A DNA stretch of 64,000 nucleotides from Ectobius pallidus (Eukaryota > Arthropoda > Insecta > Blattodea > Ectobiidae). The stretch spans positions 220,418,484-220,482,483 of the forward strand of contig CAXKWD010000001.1 of NCBI GenBank assembly GCA_964059195.1, written 5' to 3'. Each line of letters begins with the position of its first letter. Position 1 is the stretch's first letter. Under the pieces are notes generated by a model. It was not told the DNA's origin, searched no databases, and saw only the letters and a program-made list of their open reading frames with translations. This document shows, one piece after another, positions 8,680 to 58,846 of the stretch. The translations under genes were made by a program, and so were the position numbers.

Positions 8680-9883
8680 CCCACTTACAACCCCGCTCTT
8701 GTCTGCAATTTGTCTATGCAATTCTGTTCTCATTTCGAAACTAGATTAGACGAAATACGTTTAGGATATTCCTTTCAGGTAAAAGGTAGTGGCTCCCTCG
8801 TACCAGCGCTTCGTACTTAAAGAGTAAGGCAATTATTCCTTTAAGGATTATCACAACCTATTCTGACAAACACAGAGCACTAAACGTAAAGGACAACAAC
8901 TCATAACTAGAGACCGGATTTTAAAGGGAAAATTTTCCCCCAAAAAAGGACGAAAAAAGGGAAAATTATTGCCAAAAAAAGGTGGGGAAAAAAGGGAAAA
9001 TTATTGCCAAAAAAAGGTGGGAAAAAAGGGATATAAAAGTAAGAGAGTGTAAAAATTCAACAGAGAGATACATGTTTGTTTTATGTAAAGCCTTTGCTTG
9101 CTCTACAGCTGCTGATTCTGTCACATCTAATGACTTAAGAAATGTTTTGATCTTGTTGAAATTCTCACAGAGGAAAACAGCACACGAAATCCATGTTCCC
9201 CACCTTGTTATAATGAGAAACTTAGGCAATGCCAAGCCTGTGATTTCCCTGTAACGCTCTATTCTGCTGAGATGAATTATTTTTCCAATGGTGAATCAGT
9301 GAAAACAATTTTTAATGTTTCCATATTACCAAATACTGGGTAATTTACGAATTTTTCAAAATAAATTAGCAAAAAAGGTACTGGAAAGGGAAAGTTCATA
9401 AAAAAAGGGAAATGGGCCTAAAAAAGGGAAAAAAGGGACGTTAAAACCAGGTCATTTGCAGTTGAAAGTTACTCAGTAATGTCCTGTTCAATTTTATCAC
9501 GTTTTGTGATGAAATATAAAAAAAGGAATTCCCTTTAAAATCCGGTCTCTACTCATAACCGTACATGGTGTAATTCGTATCGCCTCTGTAACATGCACCC
9601 AACAACGAAACAACACCGGTGCACATTTACATGTACAAAGAATAACCTCAAGAAGTGAACGCCAATTTGCGAACACCCGGTATACCATTGAAATATATTT
9701 TCCGGTGTTCCTCTGAATATTTAGATTTAGGATGGTAAACCCTAAAAAATAGCGCAAGATCCGCGATTCAAGTCCCAGTTGTAGAAATGTACCCCATTTC
9801 TTTTTTATATACACGAAACCATTAGCCTAAATATCACGTAACGAACTAGGCAAAACTGGTGCAACGCCGGGTACACCAGCTGG
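8680..9883 (+). repeat. Helitron-like 3' segment in intron 1 of copy 2
   Basis: A block shared with copies 3 (about 17820-19164) and 6 (about 37665-38206), ending GCAACGCCGGGTACACCAGC then TGG|T. In the other copies the end is CTAG|T, a hairpin-plus-CTAG Helitron-type terminus. No 5' end was identified. It contains the hAT insertion at 8908-9551. Confidence 0.55.
8908..9551. mobile_element. hAT-like MITE, 644 bp
   Basis: Inverted ends TAGAGACCGGATTTTAAAGG and complement; exact 8-bp duplication CTCATAAC (8900-8907, 9552-9559). The interior is rich in GGGAAAA and AAAAAAGG words and has no transposase. Confidence 0.85.
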
Positions 9884-9983
9884 TAGAATGTAAAAAGAAA
9901 CAGTTGTAGTCGTAAACTGATTCCAGGGTTGGCGACCATGGAGTTTTGAACAGTCATGTCTTTTGGTTATTTTGCTTTCCAAA

Positions 9984-10760
9984 CAGGGACGTATCCAAAA
10001 TATTTTTTCGGGAGGGGCTATATAAGTCTAACACTGTTATCACTAGGGCCCGGAAATTTATGAAATTCATATTTTTAATAATGCAAATTATTACAAGGTG
10101 TCAAAGAAATATTAAGAAATTGATGGTTTAATTTTGCATATTTTGTTAGTTTTGCAATGATGCATCATATTTGCTCAATATTAAAATATTTGTGTATATT
10201 TAACCAATTTGTCACATTTATAACAGCATATTATGAGAGATGTCAAATATTGTGCATATCTCTGTTAATTAAAAAAAAAAGCTATTTGGCTAAGTGAATG
10301 TTTTGGAAACCGACTATAAAATTTATTGATAGTAAATAGACTATATTTTTTTGTAACCGATTATATAATATTAAAGCAACGTTATATACATTTTTTTTTT
10401 CAATTTACTAAAATTTATTGCAATAACTTAACCTTGTTTTATTTTAATTTTTATTATGTAATTCATAAGACTTATACTATCTTTTAAAATTCGTGATGTA
10501 ATTCAGCCAACAACAGAACGTCTAGTACAGTAATAAATTTACTTAAATAATAGAGCATACCTCATTTTTCCGGAGCATATTTCAGAAATTTCAGGTAAAA
10601 ATTCGATGTTAGGCTGAATATTGTAAGGATGTGCAATTAAACTGTCTACTAGACCTATTTGTCAAATTAAAATGTTCTTATGTGCAACATATTAGCATTA
10701 CTTAACGTTTCGGGGAGGGGGGGCTGTAGCCCCCTCAGCCCCCCTCTGAATACGCCCCTG
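9984..10760. mobile_element. hAT-like MITE, 777 bp
   Basis: Ends CAGGGACGTATCCAAAAT and, on the complement, CAGGGGCGTATTCAGAG. Flanks TTTCCAAA and TCTCCAGA form a degenerate 8-bp duplication of the TTTCCACA found at the same place in copy 3. It sits shortly before exon 2 of copy 2. Confidence 0.75.
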
Positions 10761-10850
10761 TCTCCAGAAATAACTAATAGCCATTGAGATCGCGGTTTGG
10801 GTATTTCCAATGATCAAATAATAATAGACATTGTATTACTGTTATTACAG

Positions 10851-11112
10851 ATGAAGTTGGTACTACTGCTCTTTGTTTTGGTCGCCTGCATGGCTACTGG
10901 CTTCTGTTGGCGTAAGTTTGTATTTTTCTTAACAGTTGGTCACAATCTGCAGATTTCATGCTAAGATGTAATTGGACTGTTTTCTTGCAGCTACCTTCTG
11001 TAGGGAAGACTCTAGTTGTCCTCCCGGGCACTCCTGCAAGAAGATCTGGCCAATTCCATTTGGTGTCTGCAGGCCAATGCCGGAACCAACTAAGCCACCA
11101 CAATGGTATTAG
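10851..11112 (+). CDS. Small secreted four-Cys peptide, array copy 2
   Basis: Exon 2 (10851-10911) encodes the signal peptide, ending G-F-C-W. Intron 2 is 10912-10990, phase 1. Exon 3 (10991-11112) encodes C-x5-C-x5-C-x10-C, with a P-P-G motif after the second Cys and G-V before the last, then a Pro-rich tail ending P-P-Q-W-Y before TAG; 60 residues (61 if exon 1 supplies Met). A fifth Cys lies in G-F-C at the signal border; whether it is in the mature peptide depends on the cleavage site. Compared with paralogs, the downstream poly(A) hexamer is destroyed. Confidence 0.88.
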
Positions 11113-11312
11113 TGCCAAGGACCAACTGAGAAGAAAAATGGCATTGAGTTCACAATATGAAAACAGTCTCCACAGAGCAATGACATCCACTTGTTATCAT
11201 TTATTCACCACCCTAGTCCATTCCTTCAAGTGGACATCATACTTAGCAAACACTCACCGCTGAATATTGATATTCACTCCCTGTGGAATTGTGCTCTTCC
11301 AGGGCCATATTT

Positions 11313-11318
11313 AATAAA
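11313..11318 (+). terminator. Possible substitute poly(A) signal, copy 2
   Basis: At the conserved site (about 11157-11165) the usual ATGAATAAAGTC reads ATGAAAACAGTC, so the canonical hexamer is lost. The next AATAAA is here, about 200 bp after the stop codon, in sequence outside the conserved 3' unit. Confidence 0.5.
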
Positions 11319-11319
11319 A

Positions 11320-12060
11320 GTTAAAATTTTACAGGTGACAGGTATCAGTAAATTGTTTTACAGGTTTAAATTTTGACAATTGTGTTTTTCATAAAAGCTC
11401 ACAACTTTACATAAATGCCATGACAATTTTGTTTATTGTATGAGAATTTTACATATTGTTCTTTCTCAAAACTTTTGAGTTTACAGGCAAAACTCTGGCA
11501 AATATGTCAAATTTTACGATACCTACCATTTATAAAACATTAATTTTTGTTGAGATATTTACAAGTTTACAAAGAAATGTAGAATTGTCATTACAGAAGT
11601 GACAGACAATCTCTCATATAGGCCAAGTAGATGTAAATGTAGATGTAGATATCTCGTTCTGTAGATCCCTTGTTGAATGTGACTCAAGGATACAGAACAC
11701 GTCATAAGTAGGTTAGGCCTATGTAAATGTGTGGCATAACTTGGCAAACTGTTTTTTGTGATTTAAACTTTCTTGTTAATAAACTTGCTGAATTGTCTTG
11801 TTAAAAATGAGCATTAGTATTAATATTAATATCACTTCTTAGCTGCTTGTTTCACTGGTGTGTCTCGTCCTGTGTGTTCGTGTTGAATTGGAGGTGGCCC
11901 CCGCATTGGGATGATCACTTCTCCGGGAGGCCCTCCATGTCTAGGATTTCAGACGCCCGGATTTCGTCTTTGTTCGGTTTCCAGCCAGGCATTGTAGATG
12001 TCCTGCGTTTTAATGCTACTGAACATATTAATATTAATTTTCATGTAAGTTAAAATATGT
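11320..12060. other. AT-rich spacer without gene
   Basis: Only short chance frames are present. It begins where the conserved 3' flank of copy 2 is cut off after CTCTTCCAGG, so it is a non-array insertion or a rearrangement junction. Confidence 0.4.
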
Positions 12061-12164
12061 TTTTGCGTAAGTGACGCTTTACACTTCATCCTAAATAGAT
12101 TTCAAATCTACACATAAACACGTATGACCATAGACTATCATTTGAAAATCTTGGCGGGCACAGC

Positions 12165-12660
12165 AAATAAAGCCGCGATCGGTGTAGTGATTAAGGTCCT
12201 CATATTTACAGTTGGAATTAAAATGAAAATAACCATGTACCTCATCACAGAGATGTTGAAAATGTTCTCCTCTTGCATCCACACAATACTGGCACCATTT
12301 TAGGAAATTTTCTTTCATGCGCATAAGTTCAGCTTCCGAGTTAATTTCTCTTGTGATATTGTCTCTAAGTTCTTCTAAGTTCAGTATGTCACTGTTAATT
12401 ATGGGAAACTTAAAAAATAAAAGTGTATAGGTCAATTTCCCATACATTATAAGTACTTAAAACAAAATATCACAAGAGAAATTAACTCTGTCTCGGAAGC
12501 TGAACTTATGCGCATGAAAGAAAATTTCCTAAAATGGTGCCAGTGTTGTGTGGATGCAAGAGGAGAACATTTTCAAAATCTCTTGTGATGAGGTACGTGG
12601 TTATTTGCATTGCAATTTTAGCTGTAAATGTGAGAACCTGATCATTACACCAATCGCGGC
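12165..12660. mobile_element. Foldback of two transposase 3' ends
   Basis: The minus frame (12447-12091) and the plus strand from about 12465 encode the same peptide region (AELMRMKENFLKWCQ, then VDARGEHFQ) in opposite directions around a centre near 12440. The W-x2-C-x-D-A-x-G-x-H-F string resembles C-termini of Tc1/mariner-type transposases. Outer arms include GATCGGTGTAGTGATTAAGG and its decayed complement. No terminal duplication was identified. Confidence 0.6.
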
Positions 12661-13151
12661 TTTATTAGCGTAGATATTTCACCCGATCGCCAGGAGTTGG
12701 AGTTGTGTCCACCGCAATGCAGAAACCCGCGTAATTGGCCAACTCTTGTGTGGGACTCACTGTATTACTTGTATTAGAGGTTCTGTCAGCTGTTTAGCAG
12801 CGCTCCAAATTGCAAACATGACAAGGTGTTGAACATAATTTTATGGAATACAGTTGTTGGACATGTCCCGTCCGTCACATATAATTAATTTGAATCTTAA
12901 ATTTGTTAATGATCCTACATTAAAACGTACTCTGTGAAATTATTAGGGTTTTAATTTCATGTGTAAGTTACATTTGGTTTTATATGCATACATTACCCAC
13001 AGAAATAATGTCATGTTCTGTACTCTCCAACATTTAAGGCTCAATCTTTATATGTGTGGTTGGTATCTACACCATATTACAACATTCAAGATTTCCTAAA
13101 TAACAAGATCAGTCTTTCTAATGTTACTGGTAATTTGTGAGGAGAAACTTG

Positions 13152-14293
13152 TATATGGGTCATTCTTCAAACAGGCTACGGGAAAATTTGGAGTGTGTAA
13201 AATCCAAATTTTTTACTTTGTTTTTAAAATCTCAAAAAAATTACTAAAATACTTCAGGAGTTACTTGATTATAATAAGACACCAGCAGAGTTTAAATGTT
13301 TATATTTTTATGTGGTTTCATAGTTTTCTCAGTGTGCTTCAGTTGATTTTGCACCAAATTTGTGTGCATACTCCGAAATCAATGTAATTTTAACTAGACT
13401 GTTTTTATGGTTTGGGGGGGGGGGAATCGAGCAGAAATTCATTTAATCAGTTTTAAGATTTTAAGTACAGGTCACAGACACCACAAACACAATAGTACCC
13501 TACATTTATCATCTAAGTTATATGACTTGAGAGTCATCCACATACCCCTTTATGAGGCATGTGGATGACGAAAAAGGAGTTTAAGTGGTCTCAGCTAGCC
13601 ATTTCCAAACCTCTGTAGGCTCAACTTCAGTCAGGTACTTTGAATTGGTAGGTTTATCATAGTGCATAACCAAAATTAATTAATATTCACTTTCTGCCTA
13701 CTTTCTAGAAGTCATGTTAATGACGGGGAAAAAAACGCTTTCCTTGAAAATGATGCAAAGTCCTTTGTTAATCCCAAACTGTTTGTAAGCAAGCAAAATT
13801 CAACCTTACAATTCAACCACAAGCTGCCCTGTTGGCTTTCTAACACTGTTGCCAGTTATACAAATTTCTCATTTCTGCAGAAAAAATTCCATTCTTTTCA
13901 GCCATGTGGATGACCAAAAACCCTTGGGACATTCTTTATGTTCATTAGGTGGCGTGACTATTTTATTTCATTTTATTTTTTAGTGGATAATATTCTTCAC
14001 ACGTTCATACACATTGACAGGAAACAAGTTGAAAAGGAAATAACATTTTGTTTTGTGGAAAAATGCATTAGAATATACAAAACCGGGGTATGGGACAGGG
14101 CATGTGGATGACATTTCATTGAATTAAATTTGGTTTTGGAATATCAGAATTTAAAGTTAGTGAAATTTCAGAGTGATAGTTGTAGTATGGAAGTAGTAGA
14201 AGCAAACTTTTTAAATTTTTTTTTATGTTGAATTTGTAGGGAAATATCACTCCGGAACACAAATTTTCCCGTATTTGAAGAATCACCCATATG
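13152..14293. mobile_element. Decayed inverted-repeat DNA transposon
   Basis: Left ATATGGGTCATTCTTCAAAC then ACGGGAAAATTTG; right complement ATATGGGTGATTCTTCAAAT then ACGGGAAAATTTG. The interior has no intact transposase. It carries a repeated GCATGTGGATGAC word, with one hairpin at about 13533-13570 where GTCATCCACAT pairs with ATGTGGATGAC. Confidence 0.55.
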
Positions 14294-14439
14294 TAAATTT
14301 CTAAGTGATGGTATATGGTAAATGTACAATTACCCAACTATCTCTGTTACCTGACTTATAATTTTAAATTTATATGTATTCCTATATTTCTTGACGTTGT
14401 CTATAGCTTTGTAAGCTCAATGGCAATAAAATATTGTTA

Positions 14440-14500
<61 letters not shown>
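14440..14500 (+). repeat. (TTA)n microsatellite
   Basis: About 19 uninterrupted TTA/ATT triplets. The frame across it encodes a Tyr run and is not a gene. Confidence 0.95.
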
Positions 14501-14501
<1 letters not shown>

Positions 14502-14724
14502 ATTTGTTCCGTCCGTTAAGTAATTATTTTTCTGAATTGGAGGGAGAAATGCTGGTGGATTAATAAAATTGCACGTTATTCTTATTTACCAAATAACAAA
14601 ACTTTGTGATGTGAAACACTCACATAACTTCCTCAAACTGTAATACAATTCCAGCATAAAATACTCGGCTGCATTGCGATAGTTCACATTCAGTTACCTA
14701 GCCTCATTCAATGTCGCATAATTG

Positions 14725-15445: not shown

Positions 15446-15671
15446 GAAATTAGTAAAAAGACTCGTAATCATTCGCAATATACTATCAAGTTCTTACCAA
15501 TGTATCTTAACATAAATGTTGCTAATCAAATACTTCTATTCTCTCGTTAAATCTTAATTTATCTAATCATAATTTATATTTCATTGTTTTTTTAATGACC
15601 AAGTATTATTACAGTACGCTTCATTAATTTATCCTGTTTAATTTGTTTTTGATAACTGCATACAGGGTTTA

Positions 15672-16882: not shown

Positions 16883-17383
16883 CATAGGCGTACCGAGGGG
16901 GGGGTTTTAGGGGTTTGAACCCCCCCATTGATTAAAAAAAGGAAAATTGTATAATTTTTTTAAGTCTGCCCATAAATTACTTAATACAAGTATAAAGCGT
17001 GGGAAGCTTAAAACTCGTTATTTTGCGTCTTAATAATTAAAATTTTCCGGGGGTTACCCCCGGAAGCATAAAACTCGTTATTTTGCGTCTCAATAATTAA
17101 AATTTTCCGGGGGTGACCCCCGGAAGCTTAAAAGTCGTTATTTTGCGTCTTAATTTTTAAAATTTTCCGGGGGAGCCCCGGAAGCTTAAAACTCGTTATT
17201 TTGAGTCTTAATTTTTAAAATTCTCCGGAGGAGGGCCCCCGGAAGCTTAAGACTCTTTATTTTGCATCTTAATTTTTAAAATTTTCCGGGGGAGGACCCC
17301 CGGACCCCCCTCTCCCTGGGGGGTATTCCATACCCCCCAGACGTTATAACCCCCCCCATATGGTCGGCCTGGTTACGCCTATG
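16883..17383. mobile_element. hAT-like MITE, family CATAGGCGTA, with 60-bp tandem units
   Basis: Ends CATAGGCGTACCGAGG and complement of CATAGGCGTAACCAGG; exact duplication CTTGTAAC (16875-16882, 17384-17391). Inside are five units of about 60-63 bp, each with AAAACTCGTTATTTTGCGTC and a GGGGG/CCCCC hairpin. A second copy lies reversed at 51356-51753. Confidence 0.85.
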
Positions 17384-17391
17384 CTTGTAAC

Positions 17392-18904: not shown

Positions 18905-19349
18905 TACATATACAATGAGTAACCTCAAGAAGTGAACGCCAATTCGCGAACACCCGGTATAGCCTACTATTGAAATATTTTTTTCCGGTGTTCTCCTGAG
19001 TAGGCTATTTAGATATAGGATTATAAACCCTGTAAAGTAGGGAAAGGTCTGCGATTCAAGTCCCAGTACCATAAATATAACATTTTCTTTTATGATAGGC
19101 CTACACGACACAATGTCATGTGAATACTAGCCAGAACTCATGCAATGCCGGGTACACCAGCTAGTAGAATATACATGGAACTTTGTTGTAGTCACAAACT
19201 GATCCCAGGGTTGGCCATAATGGAGTTTTGAACAGTCACGTCTCTGGTACTTATTTTGCTTTCCACAAATAACTAACAGCTTTTGAGATTGCGGTTTGGG
19301 TATTTACAATGTTGTGATAATAATACACATTGTATTACTGTTATTGCAG

Positions 19350-19680: not shown

Positions 19681-20009
19681 ATCTCCTCAGAGCAATGACA
19701 ATCCACTTGTTATCATTTCTTCACCACCCTAGTCCATTCCTTCAAGTGGACATCATACTTAGCAAACACTCACCGCTGAATTGATGTTCACTCCCTGGGG
19801 AATTGTGCTCTTCCAGATCCTTCAAGATGTTATGCAGGCTTTGCAATATCCAATCCCCTGTTTTTTTTGTCTAATATAGGCCTACCTTGCAATTATGTTT
19901 GCACACTCGGAACACAATGCTTCCTCTATCTATGTTACGGGTTAAAAAAAGTAAATATCACATGTGATACGATCAGATTACTTTCCCTATCCTAAGCGTA
20001 TCTGTATCT

Positions 20010-20999: not shown

Positions 21000-22187
21000 T
21001 GACAAGGTACTATAAAGTTAAAAATATCTGCGCACATAAATGTTAGAGAATTGTAAGATTGTTCGTAATTAATTTAGTTGTTTATATGTTGATGTGCATA
21101 TGTCAATTTATTTTGTGTTTAATACATGTTGGTGTAATGACTGACAAAAACATTGTGAAGGTCTCAATAAATGAAATATATAATGATATATGGTTATATA
21201 TAATCATATATAATTACCTATATATTTATAACAGCACCGGTAATTATATATAGTTATATATAATATATACATGGTTATATATAATATATACACAAATATT
21301 ATAATTGGTCACAAGGTGGACTGGTAACTTGGTACGTTCTGTCTCGGAACGCATGATTAGCAATTTAAGCGAAACTTTAAAAAAGAGTTGTGACCTTAAT
21401 TTTCAACGAAGGTATTAAGTGTGGGTAGTCATTTTATTCAGAATTTCAAGCTCTACAAAATGTGTATGGTCAATGGTTTTGATAGCGTTGATTGTTTTTG
21501 AGATATTGTTTTGTTAGTTTAAAAAACTTGTTTTCCGACTATAAATCACTATGCTACAGCTAAAGCTCACCTAGCAGGAGGGGGAAAACTTAGTATGTTC
21601 ATTCCTGACCTAAACTGAAGGGATTAAAACAATTTCCAGCTTTCCCCCTAATTAATTCCGAATTCAACACCCCAACCACTGGGCTATATGTGTTTTAAGA
21701 AAAACTGACTAACGTAAAAGCGCTATGATGATGGTATATGTACAGAATTTGTAGGAAAGAAATATTCACAACAAATTTATTCTCTAAAATATCTCGACTT
21801 TTCTACTCCACATGAAAATGAAACACAATCCAGAAGAATAACATGTAAGAGACAAACTAAAGCCTTGTAAGAATTCTTAAATAATGTAGATAAAATATTT
21901 TAAGGCTCTCATTGTGTCTTTATTGTTATCTAATCACATTTTATATTACATTACAATACACATAATTAATTTTTTAGTGTAATTTGTTTTTGATAATTCC
22001 GTAAAAGATTGTGACTAATAAAATATTGTTCTTAACAATGCTCCTTTGTTATAAACAATGTGGATAAAAATAATAAGGCTCTCGTATGTCTTTATTATAA
22101 TTTAATCACATTTTATATTCCACTAAAATACACTCCATTAAATTTTTAATTCAATTTGTTTTTGATAATTCCGTAAAAGGTTGTGAC
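21000..22187. other. AT-rich spacer; palindromic AT tract; upstream tandem duplication
   Basis: No gene. 21178-21292 is rich in self-complementary TATATAATCATATATAAT words. Further on, about 100 bp of upstream array sequence (GTCTTTATT to CCGTAAAAGATTGTGACT, from 21917) recurs about 171 bp downstream from 22088, a local duplication just before the copy 4 promoter. Confidence 0.6.
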
Positions 22188-22337
22188 TATCTAAGCCTCC
22201 AATAGTAACAAAATGTTTTATTGATGAACTATGTGGCTCTGATTTCGTATAAAACAGGAGTCTGAAGTCTTGAACCTCACCACAGTTCTCCAGAATTCTT
22301 AAGTCTTCAGCAGCTACAGAAGAAACAAAGCTTGATG
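22188..22337 (+). promoter_or_regulatory. Copy 4 promoter and exon 1
   Basis: TATAAAA at 22248-22254; the upstream GATA-type site is altered (GACTATC instead of CTTATC). Exon 1 ends CTTGATG with ATG at 22335-22337, donor GTGAGAG. Confidence 0.8.
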
Positions 22338-24589: not shown

Positions 24590-25290
24590 GCATTTAATGA
24601 CCACAAAATAGTGAAAAATGCAAAATAAAAAATGCATTTAGCCTATGACCTAAAATAGTAAAAAAAAAATCAAGATTTTAAAAATGAACAATAAATTTAC
24701 TATTATTACTCATAATTGGTTTTTTTAAGTAATGAATTGCTGAAAATAATTTAATGGCTGACAGTGCACTATATATGAATTTACAATATAAAACACACTT
24801 ATTTCGTTACTAAAGAAGTAAGTAAATTAATACTACTTGGATATCCTTAGCGAAAAAAAATTCTTTGTGAACTGGCATGCCCATCAAATTGCCCCTAGCA
24901 CATATGTGTAATTTAAAAGGAAAGAAAAAATATGTATTGCTACAAGACAAACTGCTACGATGTTTACAACAAACCTGAATTAACATGAACTATGAACACT
25001 TGCCGGGGATTCTCAAATAAAAACGATTGTCTGTTGTCTGAAAATAACGATCTGTATTTGAAAATCTCTTCTCTAACTCCACTAAAACATGACCTAAAAA
25101 TAAAAATAAAAAGATACTTATCTCTTGAAAATAACGAAAAATGCAAAATAAAACAAAAAATGAAAAAACAAACTGCCCTTATTTAATCAATTATTCATTA
25201 TACACATTTATATAAATATTGGAGCTATCTTTTAACATTCATATAAGAAAGATGTAAAATCATCAATTAATTATTAATTATAATTATTAT
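24590..25290. repeat. TTTTGCATTTTT-rich repeat, copy b
   Basis: Reverse-orientation relative of 14725-15445, with AAAAATGCAAAATAAAAAAT at its left edge. Non-coding. Confidence 0.5.
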
Positions 25291-26470: not shown

Positions 26471-26684
26471 TTCTCCTTTTATGCACATTTTGATAAGGAA
26501 CAGACTATATTCAGTATTATTTGCTTATGATTGCATGGATAAAAGCTTATGTAAATTAAGGCACTGTAAGAAATTTTGTCATAAACGATGTTCGTAACAC
26601 GTGACGGGTCTAATCACATTTAAAAATCCGTAACAATAGGCTACACTTCATTAATTTTCAATTTAATTTGTTTCTGATAATTCC

Positions 26685-30606: not shown

Positions 30607-30773
30607 TAACACTGTCCACACGTACGAGACAAGTGTATTTGCTGTACTGACTTTCAGATTTGTTATAGCGACCTAACAGACACGCGGTATGTTTATTGTT
30701 AAATGTTTAATAAGTGCACCCCAGTACTAGCCTATACCTATGGATACTAAATATACTGACCCGCATAGAGCAT

Positions 30774-30825
<52 letters not shown>

Positions 30826-30851
30826 GCCTAATAATAATAATAATAATAATA
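30774..30851 (+). repeat. (AAT)n microsatellite
   Basis: AAT/ATA repeats after the anchor CGCATAGAGCATTATAAT, interrupted once by AGCCTA. Orthologous in position to tracts in copies 3 and 6. Confidence 0.9.
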
Positions 30852-34519: not shown

Positions 34520-35689
34520 TAGGGACTGGATTTTTAGGTTTTTAAAAACACTGTTTTATGTTTTCCATTGGGTGAAATAGTTTTTTTTTAGGTTTTTTGT
34601 CCAAAATATCGTTTTCGGGTAGAATAATTGGTTTAATGAATTTGAATGTGCTACATAGGATTGAATACATAATACTTGTAAAGTTTAACTTCACAAAATT
34701 GACTTAAATTTGTGTAAACTTGCTTTAAGACAATATTATACAATTGAAGAAAGAATGCATAAACAATCAAAAGAAGCAGTGAAAATAAGATTGCCTCACA
34801 TTTACTGGTTATAGTTTATCACTAAATATCTTTCAAGATTCTCACCAGTGAAGTTCTTCCTGTTATCTCTTACAATTGGTTAATAGTTAATACTGTATCT
34901 AGACACTACCCTTCTCAGGATTCGAATCCGATGCTTCTAATTTAGTGAGTAAAATACTTTATGGTTGGATGTGGATAATGTGAAACTGATTATTTTCCTT
35001 TTTTCGGTTGTTACGCATGCTAACCGCACAACAGATCAACTAGGGACGAAAACTTCCCCCTTTTCTAGAAAGGTAAATAATACTTGTTTCTGGCAGGCTT
35101 GACAAAATATTACTTTGCCATCTGTCGCGAAATTCAGATCGTCGCCAAACCACTGCCGTTACAAACTCGATTTCATTTGTTTCGGCATAATTAACACGTC
35201 TTCTTAAAACTCACAGTATGACCACTCAGTATGAATAATAGGGAAGTACTAAAGGCAAACAAAAAACAATCGCTTTAAAACACAGAAATCTATATCCTTG
35301 TTCATACACGGCAACAATCGTTGTTCGTACGAACATTTTAAATGCCGGTAATCTTTTCCTCTCTTGATACTGTCCAAACTAGACGACAATGGGTTGAATG
35401 AAACGCTGGTGGTATTAATTTCTACCCGACAAAAATTATTCTCTCCCTGCAAAATGTCGATTTCTCAACTGACAAACAAAAAAGACAAAAAAAGGAACCT
35501 AAATTAGATATTTTAGGTTTTATATCCCGTTTAAGTATATTTAGGTTTTTATACCCCATTTAGGTATTTTTAGGTGCCACAGAATTTATGTGGGTGAATC
35601 CTATGGACATGATTCGAAAAAGTGTATGAGCGCTTTTTGTTTTGAAAGTAAGGGAAAAAATAGGTAAAAACCTACGAATCCTGTCCCTA
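34520..35689. mobile_element. hAT-like element, 1170 bp
   Basis: Ends TAGGGACTGGATTTTTAGGT and near-complement; exact duplication GTTATTAC (34512-34519, 35690-35697). The uninterrupted version of the site is seen in the paralogous spacer at about 26775-26790. Repeated TTTTTAGGTTTT words; no transposase. Confidence 0.85.
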
Positions 35690-37060: not shown

Positions 37061-37520
37061 TTATTTCTCTCATAAAGAACTCTGATAGACTTCTTGCTAT
37101 AGTAAATTTAAGCTTTCAAAATGCAGTTTAAAGGGAATCTATATTATGTATAATTGGATATAAGCCGAAATATTAAGCACATTTTAAAGATATACCGGAT
37201 GTTCCCGAAATGCCGTCCATTGGAATAGGCAACACAAACGACTATACTAGGAGCGGTGTGAAACCACTATTATTGTATCGTTACTAACTAAAAAGTAGAA
37301 CTAGTTTTTGCCGTTCCATTTTTATTTAAAAGTTCAGGATTGCTAACAATGTCCACACGTACGAGACAAGTGTATTTGCTGTAGGGCCTACTGACATTCA
37401 GATTTGTTATAGCGATCTGACAGACACACGGTATGTTTATTGGTAAATGTTTAATAAGTGTACCCTAGTAATTATTACTATACCTAGGAGTACTAAATAT
37501 ATTGACCCGCATAGAGCATT

Positions 37521-44300: not shown

Positions 44301-44559
44301 ATGAAGTTGGTAGGCCTACTACTGCTCTTTGTTTTGGCCGTCTGCATGGCTACTGGCTTCAATAGATTCCGTATGTTTATAATTTTCGGACACAATTATT
44401 GGTCACAGTCATTAGATTCCTTGCACAGATGTAATCGGAAGGTTTTCTTTTGCAGCTCGTCGACCATGTAATCATAACTGGAACTGTTCTCCATGGTTCT
44501 ACTGCCACAAGAAGCCAGGACAACAAAGTGGCGAATGTCGAGAAATAGGGAATGGTTGA
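44301..44559 (+). CDS. Small secreted four-Cys peptide, array copy 7
   Basis: Exon 2 (44301-44370) encodes the signal peptide, with a 6-bp insertion (TAGGCCTA in place of TA) that adds two residues in the hydrophobic core, ending G-F-N-R-F. Donor is GTATGT. Intron 2 is 44371-44455; exon 3 (44456-44559) encodes C-x5-C-x5-C-x10-C, but the conserved Gly after the second Cys is Trp. The C-terminus is short (R-E-I-G-N-G, TGA): the usual tail and TAG are missing, apparently through a deletion joining two GGT-containing words. 57 residues; divergent, possibly under relaxed or altered selection. Confidence 0.83.
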
Positions 44560-45582: not shown

Positions 45583-46966
45583 TTATTTTCCTTGAGTAAG
45601 TAAGGAAGTATGTGTAAGTAGATGAGTTTTCAAATAAGTACTTCGAGAAAATGCTTTGCTACAAACGTCACACTTGAAAGGTTTTTCTTCCGTATGAGTA
45701 AGCAGATGTCTTTTGAGATCAAATCTGCGAGAATATGCTTTGTTACAGACATCACACTTAAAAGGTTTTTCTCCTGTATGTGTAAGCAGATGTATTTTGA
45801 GATCACAACTGAATGAAAATTCTTTGTTACAAACGTCACACTTGAATGGTTTTTCTCCTGTATGTGTATACAGATGTTTTTTTACCTGGGTACTTCGAGA
45901 AAATGCTTGGTTACAAACATCACACTTGAAGAGTTTTCTTTTCTCCTTATGTGTCAACAGATGTCTTTTGTGAGCGCCGTGTTTCCAAAATGCTTGGTTA
46001 CACACATCACACTTGAAAGGTTTTTCTCTTGTATGTGTAAACAGATGTCTTTTGAGACAATTACTTTGATAAAATGTTTTGTTACAAAAGTCACACTTGA
46101 AAGGTTTTTCTCCTGTATGTGTAACCAGATGTCTTTTGAGTTCACAACTGCGAGAATATGCTTTGTTACAGACATCACACTTAAAAGGTTTTTCTGCTGC
46201 ATGTGCCAACAGATGTGTTTTGTGAGCGCTATGTTTCCAAAATGCTTTGTTACATACATCGCACTTGAAAGGGGTTTCACTTGTATGTGTAAACCGGTGT
46301 TTTTTGAGATGAATACTTCGAGAAAATGGTTTGTTACAAACATCACATTTCAAAGCTTTATCTCTTGTATGTGTAAGAAGATGTGTTTTGAGATTCTTAA
46401 ATCGTGCAAATCTTTTATTACAAACATTACACTTGAAAGGTTTTAAATCTTTATATGTAAGCAGACGAGTAACGAGATTTTCTTCTGTTCGGGTGTCACA
46501 ATCACTTGTTTTGAAATTCGTTTTTATAAGAGAATCATATGATTGGAACTTTTTTTCACTAAGTATATGCTGAGTTTCTTTTTTTTATTTCAGAATATTC
46601 GGAAATATTTTTGTCCGAATCCAGTATATCTGAACTTCGAATTGTGTTGGATAACTGATAATCATTGTGTTCACACAGGGCATCAGAAGTCAGAGGCCTA
46701 ATTTCATCATATTCATTATTTTCTTCATGAAAAGTTTCTGGAATTTTGCTGCACAACGTCGATGTTTCTGACTTCGGGATTTGGTGATCTGTTGCAATAT
46801 CATCTGGATCTATATTCTCGCTTTTAATTTGGCGTATCTCCACGAAATTGAACTCCCCTACCTTATCTTCACTCTTAACAGCACATTCGTGTTTTACACA
46901 TTCTGACTGGAAGTCTTCTTGTTTTATTTCTACTTCATCACATTTTGATGTTAGCTGAGTCTCCAT
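45583..46966 (-). CDS. C2H2 zinc-finger protein, ten fingers, one frameshift
   Basis: An intronless minus-strand gene. The N-terminal frame (46966-46559, 135 residues) is acidic, with V-E-I-K-Q-E and Q-I-K-S-E that look like SUMO-consensus sites. The second frame (about 46557-45583) begins in a linker and encodes ten C-x2-C-x12-H-x3-H fingers, most joined by T-G-E-K-P-F type linkers, ending L-L-T-Q-G-K. The frames are offset by one base at an A8 run near 46580; one A fewer would join them. It is probably a nuclear DNA-binding regulator. No KRAB or ZAD domain is seen. Either assembly error or pseudogene; the intact fingers favour recent loss or error. Confidence 0.85.
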
Positions 46967-47299
46967 TATGCAAAGTATTGTATTGATCTACACACGGAAC
47001 TGATCTTCGACCTATTGAAACAGGGTTGCCAGATCAGAAACGTTATAATAGTCGTACCAATATTCGAAAATAGTCGTATGCTAGTTAAAACTGTCGTATC
47101 TACTTTCACGCTATGCTATTCTGAAGGAGTTCCATTTGTTAGTAATAATAATAATAATTTTATTATTGTCTATGTATTATAGTTTCAGACATTGTCCCAT
47201 GGATGAAATAATAACATTAAATTACATCATAAAAATTCAGCATGATTAAAAAATAAATACAAGACTTATAATATCAATATAATATCAATACGAGTACAG

Positions 47300-51355: not shown

Positions 51356-51753
51356 CATAGGCGTAACCAGGCCGACCATATGGGGGGGGGTTATAACATC
51401 GGCGGGGTCTGGGGGGTATAAAATACCCCCAGGGAGGGGGGGTCCGGGGGTCCTCCCCCGGAAAAATTTGAAAATTAAGATGCAAAATAACGAGTTTTAA
51501 GCTTCCGGGGATCCACCCGCGGAAAATTTTAAAAATTAAGATGCAAAATAACGAGTTTTAAGCTTCCGGGGTTTCCCCGGAATATTTTAAAAATTAAGAC
51601 GCAAAATAACGAGTTTTAAGCTTCCCACGCTTTATACATGTATTAAGTAATTTATGGGCAGACTTAAAAACGTTATACAATTTTCCTTTTTTTAATCAAT
51701 GGGGGGGGGGGGTTCAAACCCCCAAACCCCCCCCCCCCCTCGGTACGCCTATG
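51356..51753. mobile_element. hAT-like MITE, family CATAGGCGTA, nested in the left TIR
   Basis: Ends CATAGGCGTAACCAGG and complement of CATAGGCGTACCGAGG; exact duplication CATCAAAT (51348-51355, 51754-51761). The right TIR arm at 54730-54750 carries the uninserted site. Opposite orientation to 16883-17383. Confidence 0.9.
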
Positions 51754-52822: not shown

Positions 52823-54238
52823 TTGGAGAACACTGTTTTTTCTTACCATACAGTCAGAAATCACGTCGTGAAACGTGAAGAAGATTATTTATGTCAACGT
52901 GAAGAGGCAGATGTATTAAAAGCGCCACCTAGTTCGAAAATATTGGTCAAAGCGAATTATACCGATGTCTTGGTAATTTTACTGGCCAATATTCAGAAAG
53001 TTCCGCAGACTCAATTTTGGTTGGCGGGTTCATCGTCAAAGAAAAACAATAAGGAAGATCTTGATTGCGTTAACTGTACTGAGCCGGCAATGAAATAGGG
53101 TCCTACTTTATGCCTGGGTCTGCCAGCTTTCCACGCATTTACGGGCTGTGATTACACAGCTACGTTTTATAACAAAGGGAGTCAAGCCTTTTCAAACATT
53201 TTCAAGAAGAACGGATTTCCAGAAATATTCGCATCATTGACGGACCCAGTAGATGTACTCGTCGAAGAGAAAATTCAACGTGTTCAGGAGTTTACTGCCC
53301 TTCTTTATGGGATCAAGCAATGTTTTATTAGGTTTGTTCGCAAAGCAAATCCGTGACTGCTTGAGAATTGGTTGTACTGCGCATGTCCAGTCTGTAACTT
53401 ACCCGTGATTTGCACTTTGCGAACGGTTACAAGAATTTGGAATCGATAGTTTCTGCGTTTAATCGATATGATATGCAAATAAAATACATATTTCCCTTTA
53501 ACATGTTGTACATGCAATATACATCGGCAATATAAACTATATTTTGGGAAACTTTTAATTATCTTCCATTATTCATACATATAAGTAGCCTATGCTTATA
53601 AATTTGGAGCAAGGATTTGGAGGGAGGAGTCAGGCGCGTGAAAATAGGTTACTGCGCATGTCTCTGATAACAATTCATGGTAGAGCCTGCAAATTTTTCT
53701 TATAGTACAGAAACTGTCCGTGAGAGCTTTGCGAACAGAAGATTGAAATCAGAATCACGGATTCTCGCTTTGCGAACGCGTGTGGAGAAAGAGCGCATGC
53801 GCGAACGATTTGTTCCTTGTTTCTGACTGCTTTGCGAACAAACCTAATATCAAAGACGCTAGATATCAGCTGTTCAAAAGAAAGAAAAAAAAATATATGA
53901 AACGAACAAACACCAAGAGCTTTTTATGAAGAAGATTATGGGCATCAACTCCAATCTTATCCCATGTATGCTGGCTGGATCTCACTCAAACATAAAACTT
54001 TGCGCACAATCTATGTAAATTCAATGTGGCTTCATGCAATTGATGCATGCTGCGTCAAACTAAATCCTGAAGGTTGCGGTTGGTTTTTGGATAGCTATTT
54101 GTAGTCACCGTGGATCGTAGGGGAACCAACACCCTTACACGTTGAGGATATACTCAGAGAGTCAAAACAAAAAGAAAACGATGAAAAATTAGAATTAGAT
54201 TGTGACATAGGCACTTCTGACGAGTCAGAATCAGAATA
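52823..54238 (+). pseudogene. GCDYT-family (FEN/PIN-like) protein, C-terminal part, broken
   Basis: T-D-V-L-V-I-L-L-A (near 52968) and F-W-L-A-G-S-S, an in-frame TAG at 53096-53098, then L-P-A-F-H-A-F-T-G-C-D-Y-T (about 53125-53165). After the nested 520-bp insertion the frame resumes I-K-D-A-R-Y-Q-L-F, then C-G-W-F-L, a TAG, and an acidic end D-E-S-E-S-E, stop. T-D-x-D and G-C-D boxes recall the acidic metal sites of flap-endonuclease/PIN proteins; this is resemblance only. Same family as 20437-20950. Confidence 0.6.
53328..53847. mobile_element. TA-flanked MITE, 520 bp, inside the nuclease-like ORF
   Basis: Ends TTAGGTTTGTTCGCAAAGCA and TGCTTTGCGAACAAACCTAA, flanked by TA (53326-53327, 53848-53849). 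Removing it and one TA restores a continuous coding frame across the junction, showing that the ORF existed before the insertion. Confidence 0.85.
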
Positions 54239-54770
54239 ATTTTTTTATATAAAACCTTTTCACTAACATATTTCGCTATTGATAAATTTATGTATGAATA
54301 AAAAAAATGTTGGTATCATTATGTGATATTTAATCTGACTTTCGCCAGTATTTAATCCGCGCTTACACGATCGGAAAATTCGCCCCTTGAAAGATGTACC
54401 TTTTGAACAGAAAAACGTATTATTTCATAATTATGTATAGTCGCTGATAAATAAATGTGTGAGTGAAAATAATTTGATATCATTGTTAATATTTAATCTG
54501 ACTTGATTCCAATATTTGATCAATGGAACGCGCTTACACTATCGGGAAAATCTTCTTTGAAAAGAACTCTCTGCATCTTGGTCTGTCGCATGGAGTTACG
54601 CGCGCACCGCTTCTCTGTCACTCTCTACGCTCGCGCTGAAAACTTTACATTTAAAATCTAGGCAACCATAGATTTGATACACCTTTTGCTAAGGCAACCT
54701 AATACGGTTGGATTGAGAATAAAATAACCTTTCATTTGATGTAATAATAATTTAAATAAAATCAGGTAAA

Positions 54771-55941
54771 CTGATGTAAAAAAGTGCCAGTATGTTTTTG
54801 TTTAATCAGTTATGACTGCAATTATGATATGCAGAATATGTTTTTTTTAAAATTGATTTCCAAGTTAAGCTCCAGATTTATTCATTAAGCAGGGCTTACG
54901 GAAGAAGAAAGGGCTACAATCTCGGCCACCTGGGTCATTTTAACGGTCTAGTTGGATAAGCGCATGTAAATCAATATGTTTTTTGTCATAGCTACCTGTA
55001 TTTTAATTTCCAAGGCCTTATAAGATCACAGTAAAACAATAGGCTATGTTGTCAAGATAACTGATTTTCATTTTTTAAAATAAATTCTTTCGAATACGTA
55101 TATTACCATAAAATAGGCACTAAATTGAGCATTACTCCGAAACAGGTCAACCGATTTTATCCATTATGAATAGACGTCTTCCCATGGACATTATAAATGT
55201 GCATACCAAGTTTCATAAAAATCCGGTAAACCGTATTTGAGTTACCGCGTCTTTAAAATATACACTAAATTGGGTTTTACTCCGGTACCGGTCTACCGAT
55301 TTGGTCCAATATCAGTAGACGTCTTTCCACGTACATTATAAATGGGTATACAAAATTTCAGGAAAATCAATAAAGCATATTTGAGTTATCGCGACTTCTT
55401 ATATATTAACATAAAAACACTAAATTGGGCATTATTCCGGTACTGGCCAACCGATTTGGTCCAATATCAATTCCCATGGACATTATAAATACGTATACGA
55501 AGTTTCATAAATATCCGATAAAGTGTAGGCCTATTTGAGTTATTGCGCCTTTAAAGTAGACACTAAATTGGGTTTTACTCCGGTACCGGTCAACAGATTA
55601 GGTTCAAATTCAATAGAGCAATTCTCATGGACGTCATAAATGGGTATACCAAGTTTCATGGAAATCCGATACAGCGTATTTGAGTGATGGCGCCTTTCTA
55701 TTAGAAAGGCGCCATAATCTATTAAAATAGGCACTAAATTGGGCATTACTCCGGTACCGGTGAACCGATTTGGTTCAATATCAATAGGGTTTTTCCCATG
55801 GACATTATAAATGTGTTTTCCAAGTTTCATGAAAATCCGAAAAAGCGTATTTGAGTTATGGTGCGTACAGACACACGGACAGAAGGACAGACATTTTTTC
55901 GTCCACCACACAATCTCATAAAGTACCATACTGGCACTTAA
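54771..55941 (-). repeat. GTGCCAG composite repeat nested in the right TIR
   Basis: Begins AATCAGGTAAACTGATG and ends CATACTGGCACTTA; ATAA flanks both sides, and the left TIR arm shows the uninserted sequence. Contains five degenerate units of about 150 bp with CTCCGGTACCGGT and, at 55867-55895, an ACAGACACACGGACAGAAGG tract. Reverse of 43407-44291. Confidence 0.75.
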
Positions 55942-56303
55942 TAACTGATGAGGGTATATTAACAACGCTTACTCACCTGTTTGTACCTGACAACTCCGTA
56001 GTTGGGCAGAGGGAAAAGTAGGCAACCTTTATTTTTTCAATTCCTTGGGGCATATTCTCTCAGCTAATGCTCGATTTTTATAAATAACAAATGGGGGAAG
56101 TTTATCGAAAAAATTTAATTAGAATTGTTATTATTTAACAGCATCGGTACGCGTTTTAGCTAGGCAACCCATTTGCGATGTATCAATGTATATATTATCT
56201 AACAAAAATTCATTATCATCATTAAATAACAGATGAGGGTATATATTTCTTATACCGGATCTCGCACTATTAATTTGTTTCTGATAATTTCAGATAGGGT
56301 ATT

Positions 56304-56456
56304 CTTATCTAAGCCCCCATACAATCAAAGTGTTGTTTTATTGTGGACTATGTAGCTTTGGTTTTGTATAAAACAGGAGCCTGAAGTCTTGAACCTCACC
56401 ACAGTTCCCCTGAATTCTTAAGTCTTCAGCGCCTACAGAAGAAGCAAAACTTGTTG
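56304..56456 (+). promoter_or_regulatory. Copy 8 promoter and exon 1
   Basis: CTTATC at 56304-56309, TATAAAA 63 bp on at 56367-56373. Exon 1 ends CTTGTTG, so the terminal ATG of other copies is TTG; translation should begin at exon 2. The long-TIR element ends only about 40 bp upstream of the GATA-type site. Confidence 0.8.
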
Positions 56457-56574
56457 GTGAGAGAGAATAAATTTATTTTAATAGTTTCCATTTATAAATA
56501 AGTTGCAGTACGAAAATACAGAACTGTTCATTAATATATTTCTAGCATTAGTGTATCATATTTCATATAACTCC

Positions 56575-56925
56575 CAGTGATAAAGCATAGGGCCTTGAAG
56601 TGGAGGTTACTGTAGCCTAACCTATTTTAATTTTGTTACGTTTATTTTTCAAGAGAAGGCAGAGTGGTAAGCCCATCGCCTCACAACCCCCCCGCATAAA
56701 CTAAGGTATTACTTGGACGTGAAAGGGACGAGGAATTTTGTCTAGAAACTCTCATTTAGGCTTGGTGTTCTTTTATGTGCCGTAAATCTACGACTCGGGC
56801 CCCCCAGATTAAAATCCCTCCCGATAGAACATTTAAATACAGGATTTTTACGTCCTGAAAAATCCATCGACCGCGGCCGGGTTTGATCTATAGGCTGGCA
56901 CGCTAGCGACTTTATCATGAGAGTG
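56575..56925 (-). mobile_element. SINE in intron 1 of copy 8
   Basis: Third member of the family at the same relative intron position as in copies 6 and 7. Confidence 0.7.
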
Positions 56926-57253
56926 GAATGTAATATTATTTCTCTCATAACTAACTCTGATATTTTAATTCTACCACTTTCTATACCCTATAAACTTCTT
57001 GCCACAGTAAAGCATTTTAAGAAATGCAGCTTAAATACGGTATATATTATTAGAATTTGAATATAAGTTGATATATTAAGCATATATTCTAAATATACCT
57101 AATGTTCCCGAAATGGGAACATGGAGTTTCGAAAAGTCACGTCTCTGGCTACTTTGCTTTAAACAAATAACTAATAGCTATTGAGATCGCGGTTCGGGTA
57201 TTTCCAATGTTGTGATAATAATAATAATACACATTGTATTACTGTTATTGCAG

Positions 57254-57521
57254 ATGAAGTTGGTACTACTGCTCTTTGTTTTGGTCCCCTGCATGGCTAC
57301 TGGCTTCTGGAGACATCGTAAGTTTGTAATTTTCTTAACAGTTGGTCACAATCTGTAGTTTTCATGTTAAGATGTAATCGAACTGTTATCTTTCAGCTTT
57401 TCGGCCTATAAAATGCCTCGATAACGCTGACTGTCCTATCGGGCAATTCTGCACCGGGCAGCCTCCATTTGGCATCTGCACGACACCTGAAGGGTTCCCT
57501 GTACCACCACAATGGTATTAG
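57254..57521 (+). CDS. Small secreted four-Cys peptide, array copy 8
   Basis: Exon 2 (57254-57317) encodes the signal peptide (V-P-C-M-A-T-G-F-W-R-H at its end). Intron 2 is 57318-57396; exon 3 (57397-57521) encodes C-x5-C-x5-C-x8-C, the shortest last loop in the array, with D-C-P-I-G between Cys 1 and 3 and G-I-C at the end, then a tail ending V-P-P-Q-W-Y before TAG; 62 residues. Intron 1 is only 797 bp, the shortest, since it lacks the larger transposon insertions. Confidence 0.88.
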
Positions 57522-57569
57522 TACCAAGGAATAACTGAGCCGCCAAAATGGTATTGAGACCACAATATG

Positions 57570-57575
57570 AATAAA
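57570..57575 (+). terminator. Copy 8 poly(A) signal
   Basis: AATAAA about 50 bp after the stop, conserved context. Confidence 0.87.
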
Positions 57576-57995
57576 GTCTCCACAGAGAAAAGGCAATCCA
57601 CTTGTTATCATTTCTTCACCACCCTAGTCCATTCCTTCAAGTGGACATCATACTTAGCAAACACTCACCGCTGAATTGATATTCTCTCCCTGGGGAAGTC
57701 TGCTCTTCCAGATCCTTAATGATGTTATGCAGGCTTTGCAATACTCAGCCCTCTGGTTTTTGGTTAATATACTTTGCAACGAGCAGAAGTGATTTCATCC
57801 ACCCGCCATCACACATGACTATTGTCAACATGTAATGCATAATAATATCTACGCTTATGTTTTTAACATGTAAAGGAAGAGGCTGTATTCACTAATACTT
57901 GCTTATGAAATCAGACCTTTGCATATAATTTCAAGAAAACAGTAAAACCAGTGAACAAAGTGAGCAAACGTACAATTACATATAAGTTTTCATTA

Positions 57996-58221
57996 GAAGA
58001 GTGAAGTTTTCTCGGGCAGTCAGCCAGGTGTTTGCGTCAATTAAACCCGACGTTTCGGAGGCCAACGATGCCTCCATCTTCAAAGGCGTTGAAGATGGAG
58101 GCGCCTTTGAAGATGGAGGCAGCGTTTGCCTCCGAAACGTCGGGTTTAATTGACGCAAACACCTGGCTGACTGCCCGAGAAAACTTCACTCAGCTTTTGC
58201 GCCAGGAAAACCTCAGATCTT
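57996..58221. mobile_element. Foldback insertion with 64-bp arms
   Basis: Arms 57999-58062 and 58128-58191 are essentially perfect inverted repeats (GAGTGAAGTTTTCTCGGGCA outward). The loop contains a second palindrome, GCCTCCATCTTCAAAGGCG against CGCCTTTGAAGATGGAGGC. A 12-bp direct repeat AAGTTTTCATTA (57984-57995, 58222-58233) flanks it, and the homologous spacer after copy 6 (near 40862-40873) is uninserted. Confidence 0.88.
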
Positions 58222-58233
58222 AAGTTTTCATTA

Positions 58234-58490
58234 ATTCGAGTACATGTTTTTTTAAACAATTTATTGTTTAGTGGTATCACATTAGGGTTTCTGTTTGTAA
58301 AATTGTTATATAACCTTGATCGGAAATTTATACATTGTTTTTGACCTGCTTCTGTAGCACACTTTGGTTTCAAAAGAGGGCAAGTGATATTATACCTCCT
58401 TGTATTATAGTAGTGATGTTGGGTTATGAATTTTTCATGAAGTTTATGGAAATGATTGAATAAAGTGTAGGAGTTAATTGTTTTTATACT
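58234..58490 (-). mobile_element. LINE family NN 3' fragment
   Basis: Minus frame with R-R-Y-N-I-T-C-P, P-K-C-A-T-E-A-G and P-L-N-N-K-L-F-K; homologous to 40862-41043 plus 42050-42120 and serving as the empty site for the mariner-like element there. Its 5' edge at about 58488 abuts (CTA)n and the exon-3 remnant of copy 9. Confidence 0.75.
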
Positions 58491-58499
58491 ACTACTACT

Positions 58500-58582
58500 A
58501 CTACCAAGAACCACCAAAATGGAATTAGTACCAAGGAGAACCTGAGTGGCCATATTGATATTGAGACCACAAGATGAATAAA
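58500..58582 (+). pseudogene. Array copy 9: 3' remnant only
   Basis: Begins inside the exon-3 tail (Y-Q-E-P-P-K-W-N, TAG at 58528-58530), followed by the conserved 3' UTR with AATAAA at 58577-58582. No promoter, signal exon or Cys codons remain; the LINE insertion or a linked deletion removed them. The conserved 3' flank continues to about 58850, the right end of the array. Confidence 0.8.
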
Positions 58583-58846
58583 GTCTCCACAGAGCAATGA
58601 CAATCCACTTGTTATCATTTCTTCACCACCCTAGTCCATTCCTTCAAGTGGACATCATACTTAGCAAACACTCACCGCTGAATTGATATTCACTCCCTGG
58701 GGAATTGTGCTCTTCCAGGTCCTTCATGATGTTATGCAGGCTTTGCAATACTAAGCCCTCTGGTTTTGTTTAATATAGCTACCTTGCAACTAGCAGAAGT
58801 GATTTTATTCACCCGCCTTCACACATGACTATCGCCAACTTGTACG

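Follow-up and report, generated by a model that had tools for sequence, protein, structure and literature searches.

Recurrent TA-flanked GGCC micro-insertions in the genome of Ectobius pallidus, possible excision footprints of TA-targeting transposons

Introduction

What writes the same few nucleotides, bounded on both sides by TA, into one copy of a repeated sequence where the related copies have a single TA? The question is raised by a stretch of 64,000 nucleotides of the Ectobius pallidus genome (contig C1, positions 220,418,484-220,482,483; the window hereafter means this whole stretch), taken from an assembly of 2,124,618,226 bases (2.12 Gb) in 410 contigs. A first-pass annotation of the window had listed sites at which one copy carries a short core of G and C between two TA, among them the octamer TAGGCCTA (core GGCC), and had held excision footprints and an end-joining or fill-in process to be equally possible causes. 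Here, we confirm that this micro-insertion motif is real and genome-wide, describe its target and its core spectrum, and weigh the processes that could have produced it, of which transposon excision is the one towards which we lean.

Results

Filled and empty sites in the window

Self-alignment of the window, with paralogues accepted at E<=1e-6, yielded 13 sites where one copy holds the core and its paralogues are without it. Eleven of these are clean, the less clean ones being 19096 and 42428, and two (19877 and 58776) represent the same position of one repeat family. The sites, to which no strand is assigned, are the following:

9823..9829, TAGCCTA, 3-nt core (1 G, 2 C); paralogue 38150 reads TA, with flank identity 0.80/0.90, and paralogue 19112 shows a larger gap
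18960..18966, TAGCCTA, 3-nt core; paralogues 9683 and 38013 read GGTATACCATTG
19001..19007, TAGGCTA, 3-nt core; paralogue 38046 reads TA and 9717 reads ATA
19096..19103, TAGGCCTA, 4-nt core; paralogues 9808 and 38135 read TATA, with a 2-bp alignment ambiguity
19877..19884, TAGGCCTA, family position with three states; a MAFFT alignment of five copies shows TA twice, TAGCTA at 58776 and a deletion in one (40.6 kb)
24639..24645, TAGCCTA, 3-nt core; the single paralogue, 15401 on the minus strand, reads TA, with flank identity 0.93/0.78
26637..26643, TAGGCTA, 3-nt core; two paralogues (in 21929-22017 and 22103-22235) read TA
37382..37390, TAGGGCCTA, 5-nt core (3 G, 2 C); the single paralogue, in 30607-30847, reads TA at 86.8% identity
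42428..42435, TAGGCCTA, 4-nt core; three paralogues without the 6 bp read TT, TT and TC, the target TA being presumed
44311..44318, TAGGCCTA, 4-nt core, the best-supported insertion; seven alignments lack the 6 bp, and of the six printed four read TA and two CA
55526..55533, TAGGCCTA, 4-nt core, in a 145-bp tandem family; eight high-scoring segment pairs, and six distinct places without the core, four with clean TA and two with a shifted gap
56613..56619, TAGCCTA, 3-nt core; TA in paralogues 36739 and 42785, TT in a third at 20.0-20.3 kb
58776..58781, TAGCTA, 2-nt core; plain TA in the copies at 57.8 and 25.9 kb

The earlier list thus gains 24639 and loses 28531, which has no paralogue at the cut-off used; its motif positions all hold except that of one TAGCCTA, which sits at 56613 and not at 56623. 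The three coexisting states that it described in the 3' flank of one family were found again: TAGGCCTA, TAGCTA, and TA in the copies at 57.8 and 25.9 kb. At 44311 and 55526 a single filled copy faces several empty ones, and the change at these two multi-copy sites therefore reads as insertion; the empty state being the commoner, the octamer does not appear ancestral there. The single-paralogue sites 24639 and 37382 lie outside this statement on polarity. No duplication beyond the TA itself was seen in the filled/empty alignments, in which the 8-bp duplication of hAT type was looked for.

Further octamers of the window fall into two sets. Three are in register within a tandem array, in near-identical context, and ten have no alignable paralogue in the window:

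2577..3208, three TAGGCCTA (2577, 2889 and 3201) of a 312-bp tandem array at 2468-3409, no strand assigned
5429..5436, TAGGCCTA without alignable paralogue, no strand assigned; likewise 11714, 24449, 28531, 33183, 33375, 33857, 33873, 49933 and 59709

The motif copies of the pairs 661/55040 and 7660/27013 are common by descent.

Abundance of the motif

In the whole assembly each motif was counted against its own letters read backwards. Since CpG content is not the same in these controls, a second background was provided by Markov expectations computed on a masked sample; this sample comprises 243,149 bases (243 kb) in 27 sequences including the window, L001 and L003 being left out for overlap together with 38,899 bases of tandem arrays. 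The octamer TAGGCCTA occurs 520,230 times in the assembly (control 14,707), the two 3-nt-core forms 640,131 times (TAGCCTA 321,427 and TAGGCTA 318,704; control 71,271 + 71,487 = 142,758), the 5-nt-core form TAGGGCCTA with its complement TAGGCCCTA 33,659 times (control 4,416), and TAGGGCCCTA 1,016 times (control 478). Under reversed, Markov and shuffle backgrounds alike, TAGGCCTA is enriched about 25-35 times, and the genome-wide count by which the first-pass annotation had proposed to judge the motif is thus far from expectation.

The masked sample holds 70 copies of TAGGCCTA, 14 in the window and 56 elsewhere, in 70 different contexts, against 2.4 expected; the 3-nt forms number 77 against 20-24, TAGGGCCTA 3 against 1.0, and TAGCTA 54 against 44-59, which is no demonstrable excess. 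The window was also compared with 200 shuffles of itself, in which TAGGCCTA had a mean of 0.62 and a maximum of 4, against the 18 copies present, these 18 being partly non-independent since 2577, 2889 and 3201 lie within one array. TAGCCTA and TAGGCTA together (16; mean 6.05, maximum 17) are raised, within the range of the shuffles, TAGGGCCTA/TAGGCCCTA (2; mean 0.24, maximum 4) are too few to judge, and TAGCTA shows no rise (16; mean 13.65, maximum 23). Twenty 10-kb stretches of C1 contained 58 TAGGCCTA.

The genome counts are of copies, not of events, and some copies, in tandem arrays and in a satellite, are common by descent. The satellite, with a period near 50 bp, lies at the start of C1 (L009, which is C1:500-10000, and L001-L008), and its monomer was seen in nine loci. 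The first eight TAGGCCTA places of the genome-wide count fall within one of its monomer types, and the filled monomer is matched by an exact empty version once in L009 and nowhere in L001-L008.

Target, core and flanks

In the masked sample, TA is by far the commonest dinucleotide directly repeated around GGCC (the 70 copies above), the next largest count being 4, which bears out the claim that TA is always duplicated. When the distance between TAGG and CCTA was varied from 0 to 30, only 0 was in excess (70; 0-5 at the others). The cores have the form G1-3C1-3, and the first-pass statement that they always run from G to C is right for this dominant class and has to make room for a second, rarer core, CCGG: TACCGGTA counts 84,139 in the genome against 24,808 for its control and 13 against 1.6 in the masked sample, in 13 different contexts, and at L019:8535 it forms a filled site with two empty paralogues.

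Mixed cores of the GGGG type (TAGGGGTA/TACCCCTA) are not in excess in the genome (35,311; control 43,541), whereas about 350,000 would be expected if the two ends were independently G or C (2 x sqrt(505,523 x 59,331), the two numbers being the excess counts for GGCC and CCGG). Nor are the one-sided products TAGGTA/TACCTA (103 in 243 kb, against 110-123). It follows that the nucleotides at the two ends are the same, and that an end almost never contributes none, a pattern to be expected of inverted termini. The initial parity between a footprint and an end-joining or fill-in process is thereby lost, and the footprint gains partial support.

At base -1 of TAGGCCTA, A and G have frequencies of 0.40 and 0.38 (70 contexts, both flanks counted), the corresponding values over all TA being 0.33 and 0.18; chi-square is 53 with 3 df when the flanks are treated as independent. 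Genome-wide, 275,671 of the 520,230 copies have R-TA-Y flanks, where the background predicts about 26%. The nested form TAGGCCTAGGCCTA is present 1,262 times against 0, from which we conclude that a scar itself serves as target.

The core lengths were described by a model in which each end gives 1, 2 or 3 nt independently, with frequencies fitted to three classes: 0.31-0.32 for 1 nt, 0.66-0.67 for 2 nt and 0.02 for 3 nt, with rare 0-nt ends, at no more than about 0.08. Applied to the 13 aligned sites, it predicts 5.6-5.9, 5.4-5.5, 1.3-1.4 and 0.3 of the classes 2+2, 2+1, 1+1 and 3+2, and 5, 6, 1 and 1 were seen. For the 3+3 class it predicts 315-423 extra TAGGGCCCTA, against 142-538 seen under two backgrounds; the rarity of TAGGGCCCTA, once considered as an argument against independent ends, was dropped, since independent ends with a rare 3 nt predict such rarity. 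The predicted excess of TAGCTA, 12-14 per 243 kb, would be masked by background. By this model all forms together would number 1.1-1.2 million in the genome, or one in every 1.8-1.9 kb, copies common by descent included; its frequencies put cores of 4, 3, 2 and 5 nt near 0.44 : 0.42 : 0.10 : 0.02.

Decay of TAGGCCTA was considered and rejected as the origin of the 3-nt forms, their excess (77 against 20-24 for the 1-bp-short form alone) being too large when all 24 single substitutions together total 104 against 62. The same substitution neighbours give a rough mean copy age near 8% divergence ((104-62)/68/8). The 16.1 kb of 12 transposase-bearing elements contained no copy of the three main forms, against 4 in the 8.6 kb flanking them, a pattern that would fit a build-up of scars with age; these 12 are among 29 transposase loci, and their selection for intact open reading frames, which selects against insertions, may contribute to the difference.

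Search for a source element

Scans of the masked sample for TA-flanked terminal inverted repeats gave 187 matches against 4 in the control, and most of the matches are therefore real inverted repeats of some kind. Of those starting with GG, the following were rejected as sources and assigned to hAT by their 8-bp duplications:

window 189-1546, hAT-type element, TAGGG-like ends, 8-bp duplication with one mismatch
window 7116-8294, hAT-type element, TAGGG-like ends, 8-bp duplication
window 8908-9551, hAT-type element, TAGGG-like ends, 8-bp duplication
window 34520-35689, hAT-type element, TAGGG-like ends, 8-bp duplication
L010:541-1560, hAT-type element, TAGGG-like ends, 8-bp duplication
L023:2525-3882, hAT-type element, TAGGG-like ends, 8-bp duplication

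Two TAGGCG elements, at 16885 and 51358, were set aside as hAT-like on 8-bp duplications judged by eye. They form a non-autonomous pair (window 16883-17383 and 51356-51753) with ends CATAGGCGTA...TACGCCTATG and, by eye, duplications CTTGTAAC and CATCAAAT, and both contain a tandem array of 60-bp period with CCGGGGG/CCCCCGG stems. L014:3328-3822 has a TA duplication only, arms matching at 15/20 and no second copy among the loci examined, and was judged a chance match; we take it to resemble part of the reading frame of a long interspersed nuclear element. By-eye inspection of the 68 occurrences of TAGGCC without a following TA revealed no inverted pair, and none of the 35 pairs of a large-gap scan was seen to combine a TA duplication with GG ends.

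Candidate transposases, taken as first-look matches with 150 scored per family, amount to 6,151 for DDE_3, 5,222 for Transposase_1 and 1,354 for DDE_1 and speak to presence only. Several features of the transposons were recorded in passing. In the Tc1-type loci L029, L030, L036, L037 and L038, tandem repeats spaced by about 21 bp lie immediately internal to each end, and TACAGTA, which CAG-ended Tc1 elements would be expected to leave, numbers 77 against 37-52 expected in the 243-kb sample. One transposase match recurs on C5:55721-56230 and C371:55721-56230, which would fit a duplication of the C5 start in C371. The copies of a long-inverted-repeat family (L041-L044) are mostly 96-99% identical, with several pairs about 2.4 kb apart.

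Other contents of the window

Judged by reverse transcriptases, a C2H2 zinc-finger gene and transposons, the genome is of animal type. The five named matches to the reverse transcriptase, among the 120 listed, are all from insects, at 34-45% identity. The zinc-finger gene (45583-46987, minus strand) carries an 84-bp repeat array of fingers, and its matches are mixed, with crab and skink on top and many from Periplaneta americana. A search for relatives among viral and genome contigs found none.

Discussion

On balance, we favour the view that the micro-insertions are footprints left when TA-targeting cut-and-paste transposons with GG...CC (and CC...GG) inverted termini excised and the broken ends were joined. 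Direct support comes from the TA duplication, the core spectrum, the matching ends, the flank preference, the polarity at two multi-copy sites and the genome-wide scale; the element, its transposase and the end joining are what we infer from these, a source having been looked for and not found. Such transposons, with termini beginning GG, would integrate at TA, preferably R-TA-Y, and duplicate it. Excision would leave each flank with its TA and, from the element, usually the outermost 2 nt, occasionally 1 and seldom 3; TA-GG would then be fused with CC-TA into TAGGCCTA by non-homologous end joining, the two GG 3' overhangs being joined without pairing and sometimes nibbled. The loss of one nucleotide would give TAGGCTA or TAGCCTA, the keeping of three TAGGGCCTA, and TACCGGTA would come from another family of lower activity whose ends start with CC. 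As the copy number of a cut-and-paste family would stay roughly constant while its scars accumulate, few sources could leave very many scars. Neutral scars should fix at their rate of origin, and one million of them in 20 million generations would need about 0.05 excisions per gamete, as would be supplied, for example, by 500 copies each excising once per 10,000 generations (all assumed figures).

Several results weigh against this view. The scans of the masked sample, window included, yielded no acceptable TA-duplicated element with ends GG...CC, and none of the 18 transposase loci, out of 29, whose termini could be read is of GG type, pogo-type termini being unread. Among these, 11 of 14 mariner loci have CGAGG-like ends (three unread), and 7 of 15 DDE_3 loci begin with TACC (4), CACTGG (1), GAGGG (1) or, weakly, CATAG (1), with eight unread. 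A search for sources trapped in satellite found 36 places, of which the four read all belong to the one, unrelated, long-inverted-repeat family. The CGAGG mariners, numerous as they are, have no comparable class of scars (TACGTA 42 against 44, counted in unmasked sequence; TACGATA 29 against 21-23). Longer remnants of ends show no excess in the masked sample, and the clear bias of the flanks is confined to -1/+1 (R-TA-Y), with no sign of the AT-rich palindromic target of the ZB type, which may not be universal. The first-pass remark that no intact source is present in the window thus extends to the whole sample and to the readable loci. A family of 500 copies would be expected only 0.06 times in 243 kb, and its absence from so small a sample is therefore not fatal.

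An element-free origin would dispose of this difficulty. A host-encoded or domesticated cutter, such as a captured transposase, could make staggered breaks at R-TA-Y, the cutter itself or a dedicated polymerase adding two G's to each 3' end ahead of joining, which would account for the empty scans and transposase loci, for the 520,230 copies, for the strict TA and for a fixed core without longer remnants. It would, however, require two modes (GGCC and CCGG) that never yield a mixed product, and addition at nearly every end, since TAGGTA is not in excess; we consider it unlikely, and somewhat less likely is the fuller proposal that the genome has, or recently had, such a TA-cutter writing the GGCC(TA) scar at R-TA-Y and responsible for about a million inserted copies. 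A mariner-type element with 3-nt overhangs GGC is an improbable source: GC:GC annealing would give GGCC, full overlap with a G-G mismatch would give GGC/GCC, hence the two main classes at similar frequency, and an analogous CCG end would give CCGG, but neither the TAGCTA of 58776 nor the 33,659 TAGGGCCTA/TAGGCCCTA would arise, and TACCGTA, the expected partner of CCGG, stands at 20 against 15-16.

Insects have TTAGG telomeres, and telomerase might add GG to breaks ending in TA, in phase with TTAGG, the joined ends forming a miniature TTAGG/CCTAA fusion. The 243-kb sample does hold more TAGGTTAGG than expected (8 against 1.0-1.5), as well as a single TAGGTTAGGCCTA (expectation 0.00). The TAGGTTAGG places listed are as follows:

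L012 near 2787-2797 and at 3931
window 11709, 18170 and 56624

Three of the seven lie in TTAGG runs of L012, however, and at 56624 the empty copies already contain the second repeat unit. Neither partial extensions (TAGGTCCTA 1 against 1.0-1.3; TAGGTTCCTA 0) nor one-sided products are in excess, and the CCGG class would be left unexplained, which makes this origin more doubtful still. Least probable, in our judgement, are two others. Random double-strand breaks that gained untemplated G or C before being joined would fit run lengths that behave as independent draws at both ends, but this origin is already disfavoured by the lack of mixed cores, the strict TA target with its flank preference and the rarity of 0-nt ends. 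That the octamer is ancestral and the short form a deletion, or that the motif spread only inside repeats and satellites, agrees with the copies common by descent (the 2577-3201 array, the satellite monomer of nine loci, the pairs 661/55040 and 7660/27013); against it stand the seven alignments at 44311 and the six distinct places at 55526 without the octamer, the 70 contexts of the 70 masked copies, and the separate explanation that repeated exact deletions leaving TA would need.

If the micro-insertions are excision footprints, they would record past excisions by a transposon far outnumbered by its own scars and would be an important source of short insertions in the genome of an animal; the ages of the scars, unlike copy counts, could then gauge the excision rate over time. 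If they are not, a germline mutator not known before, with a fixed product, exists. Either way, the motif can be mapped by simple word counts, which makes comparative and population tests easy.

Searches by topic, and for the octamer among 5.39 million open-access papers, within the portions that were available and with subscription papers and preprints outside the scope, met no account of such micro-insertions, and their novelty is provisional; a primer of Blattella germanica, in the part consulted of PMC7650587, contains the octamer. With the genome's own hAT elements (TAGGG...CCCTA) the micro-insertions share the first and last four bases, TAGG and CCTA, but hAT duplicates 8 bp, whereas here only TA is duplicated and the empty copies already hold it. 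Telomerase insertions at breaks give interstitial telomeric repeats and would add GG after TA in TTAGG species; the micro-insertions, in contrast, are symmetrical, possess a second core, CCGG, and show no excess of the partial extensions TAGGTCCTA and TAGGTTCCTA, although TAGGTTAGG is raised. The closest likeness is to the IS630-Tc1-mariner group. According to the passages available from PMC3878927 and PMC2874221, the 3' overhangs after Tc1/mariner excision are 2 or 3 nt long, and their sequence is retained between the target duplications by non-homologous end joining. Footprints of Passer and ZB are given as 0-4 and 0-3 bp at excision sites in the accessible text of PMC9976928 and PMC7913693, which describes cell assays and, for ZB, insertion into a palindromic AT repeat. 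Overhangs of 2-3 nt with small losses agree with our fitted ends (about 0.32, 0.66 and 0.02 for 1, 2 and 3 nt). The micro-insertion would thus work like a Tc1/mariner-type footprint such as that of Sleeping Beauty (C(A/T)GTA, in Table 1 of PMC3878927), with TA duplicated, few terminal nucleotides kept, small variation in length and closure by end joining, and falls short of identity with that type for want of a source element. What sets it apart is a GGCC core drawn from both ends, with no element of such ends found, R-TA-Y flanks, and hundreds of thousands of copies in one genome.

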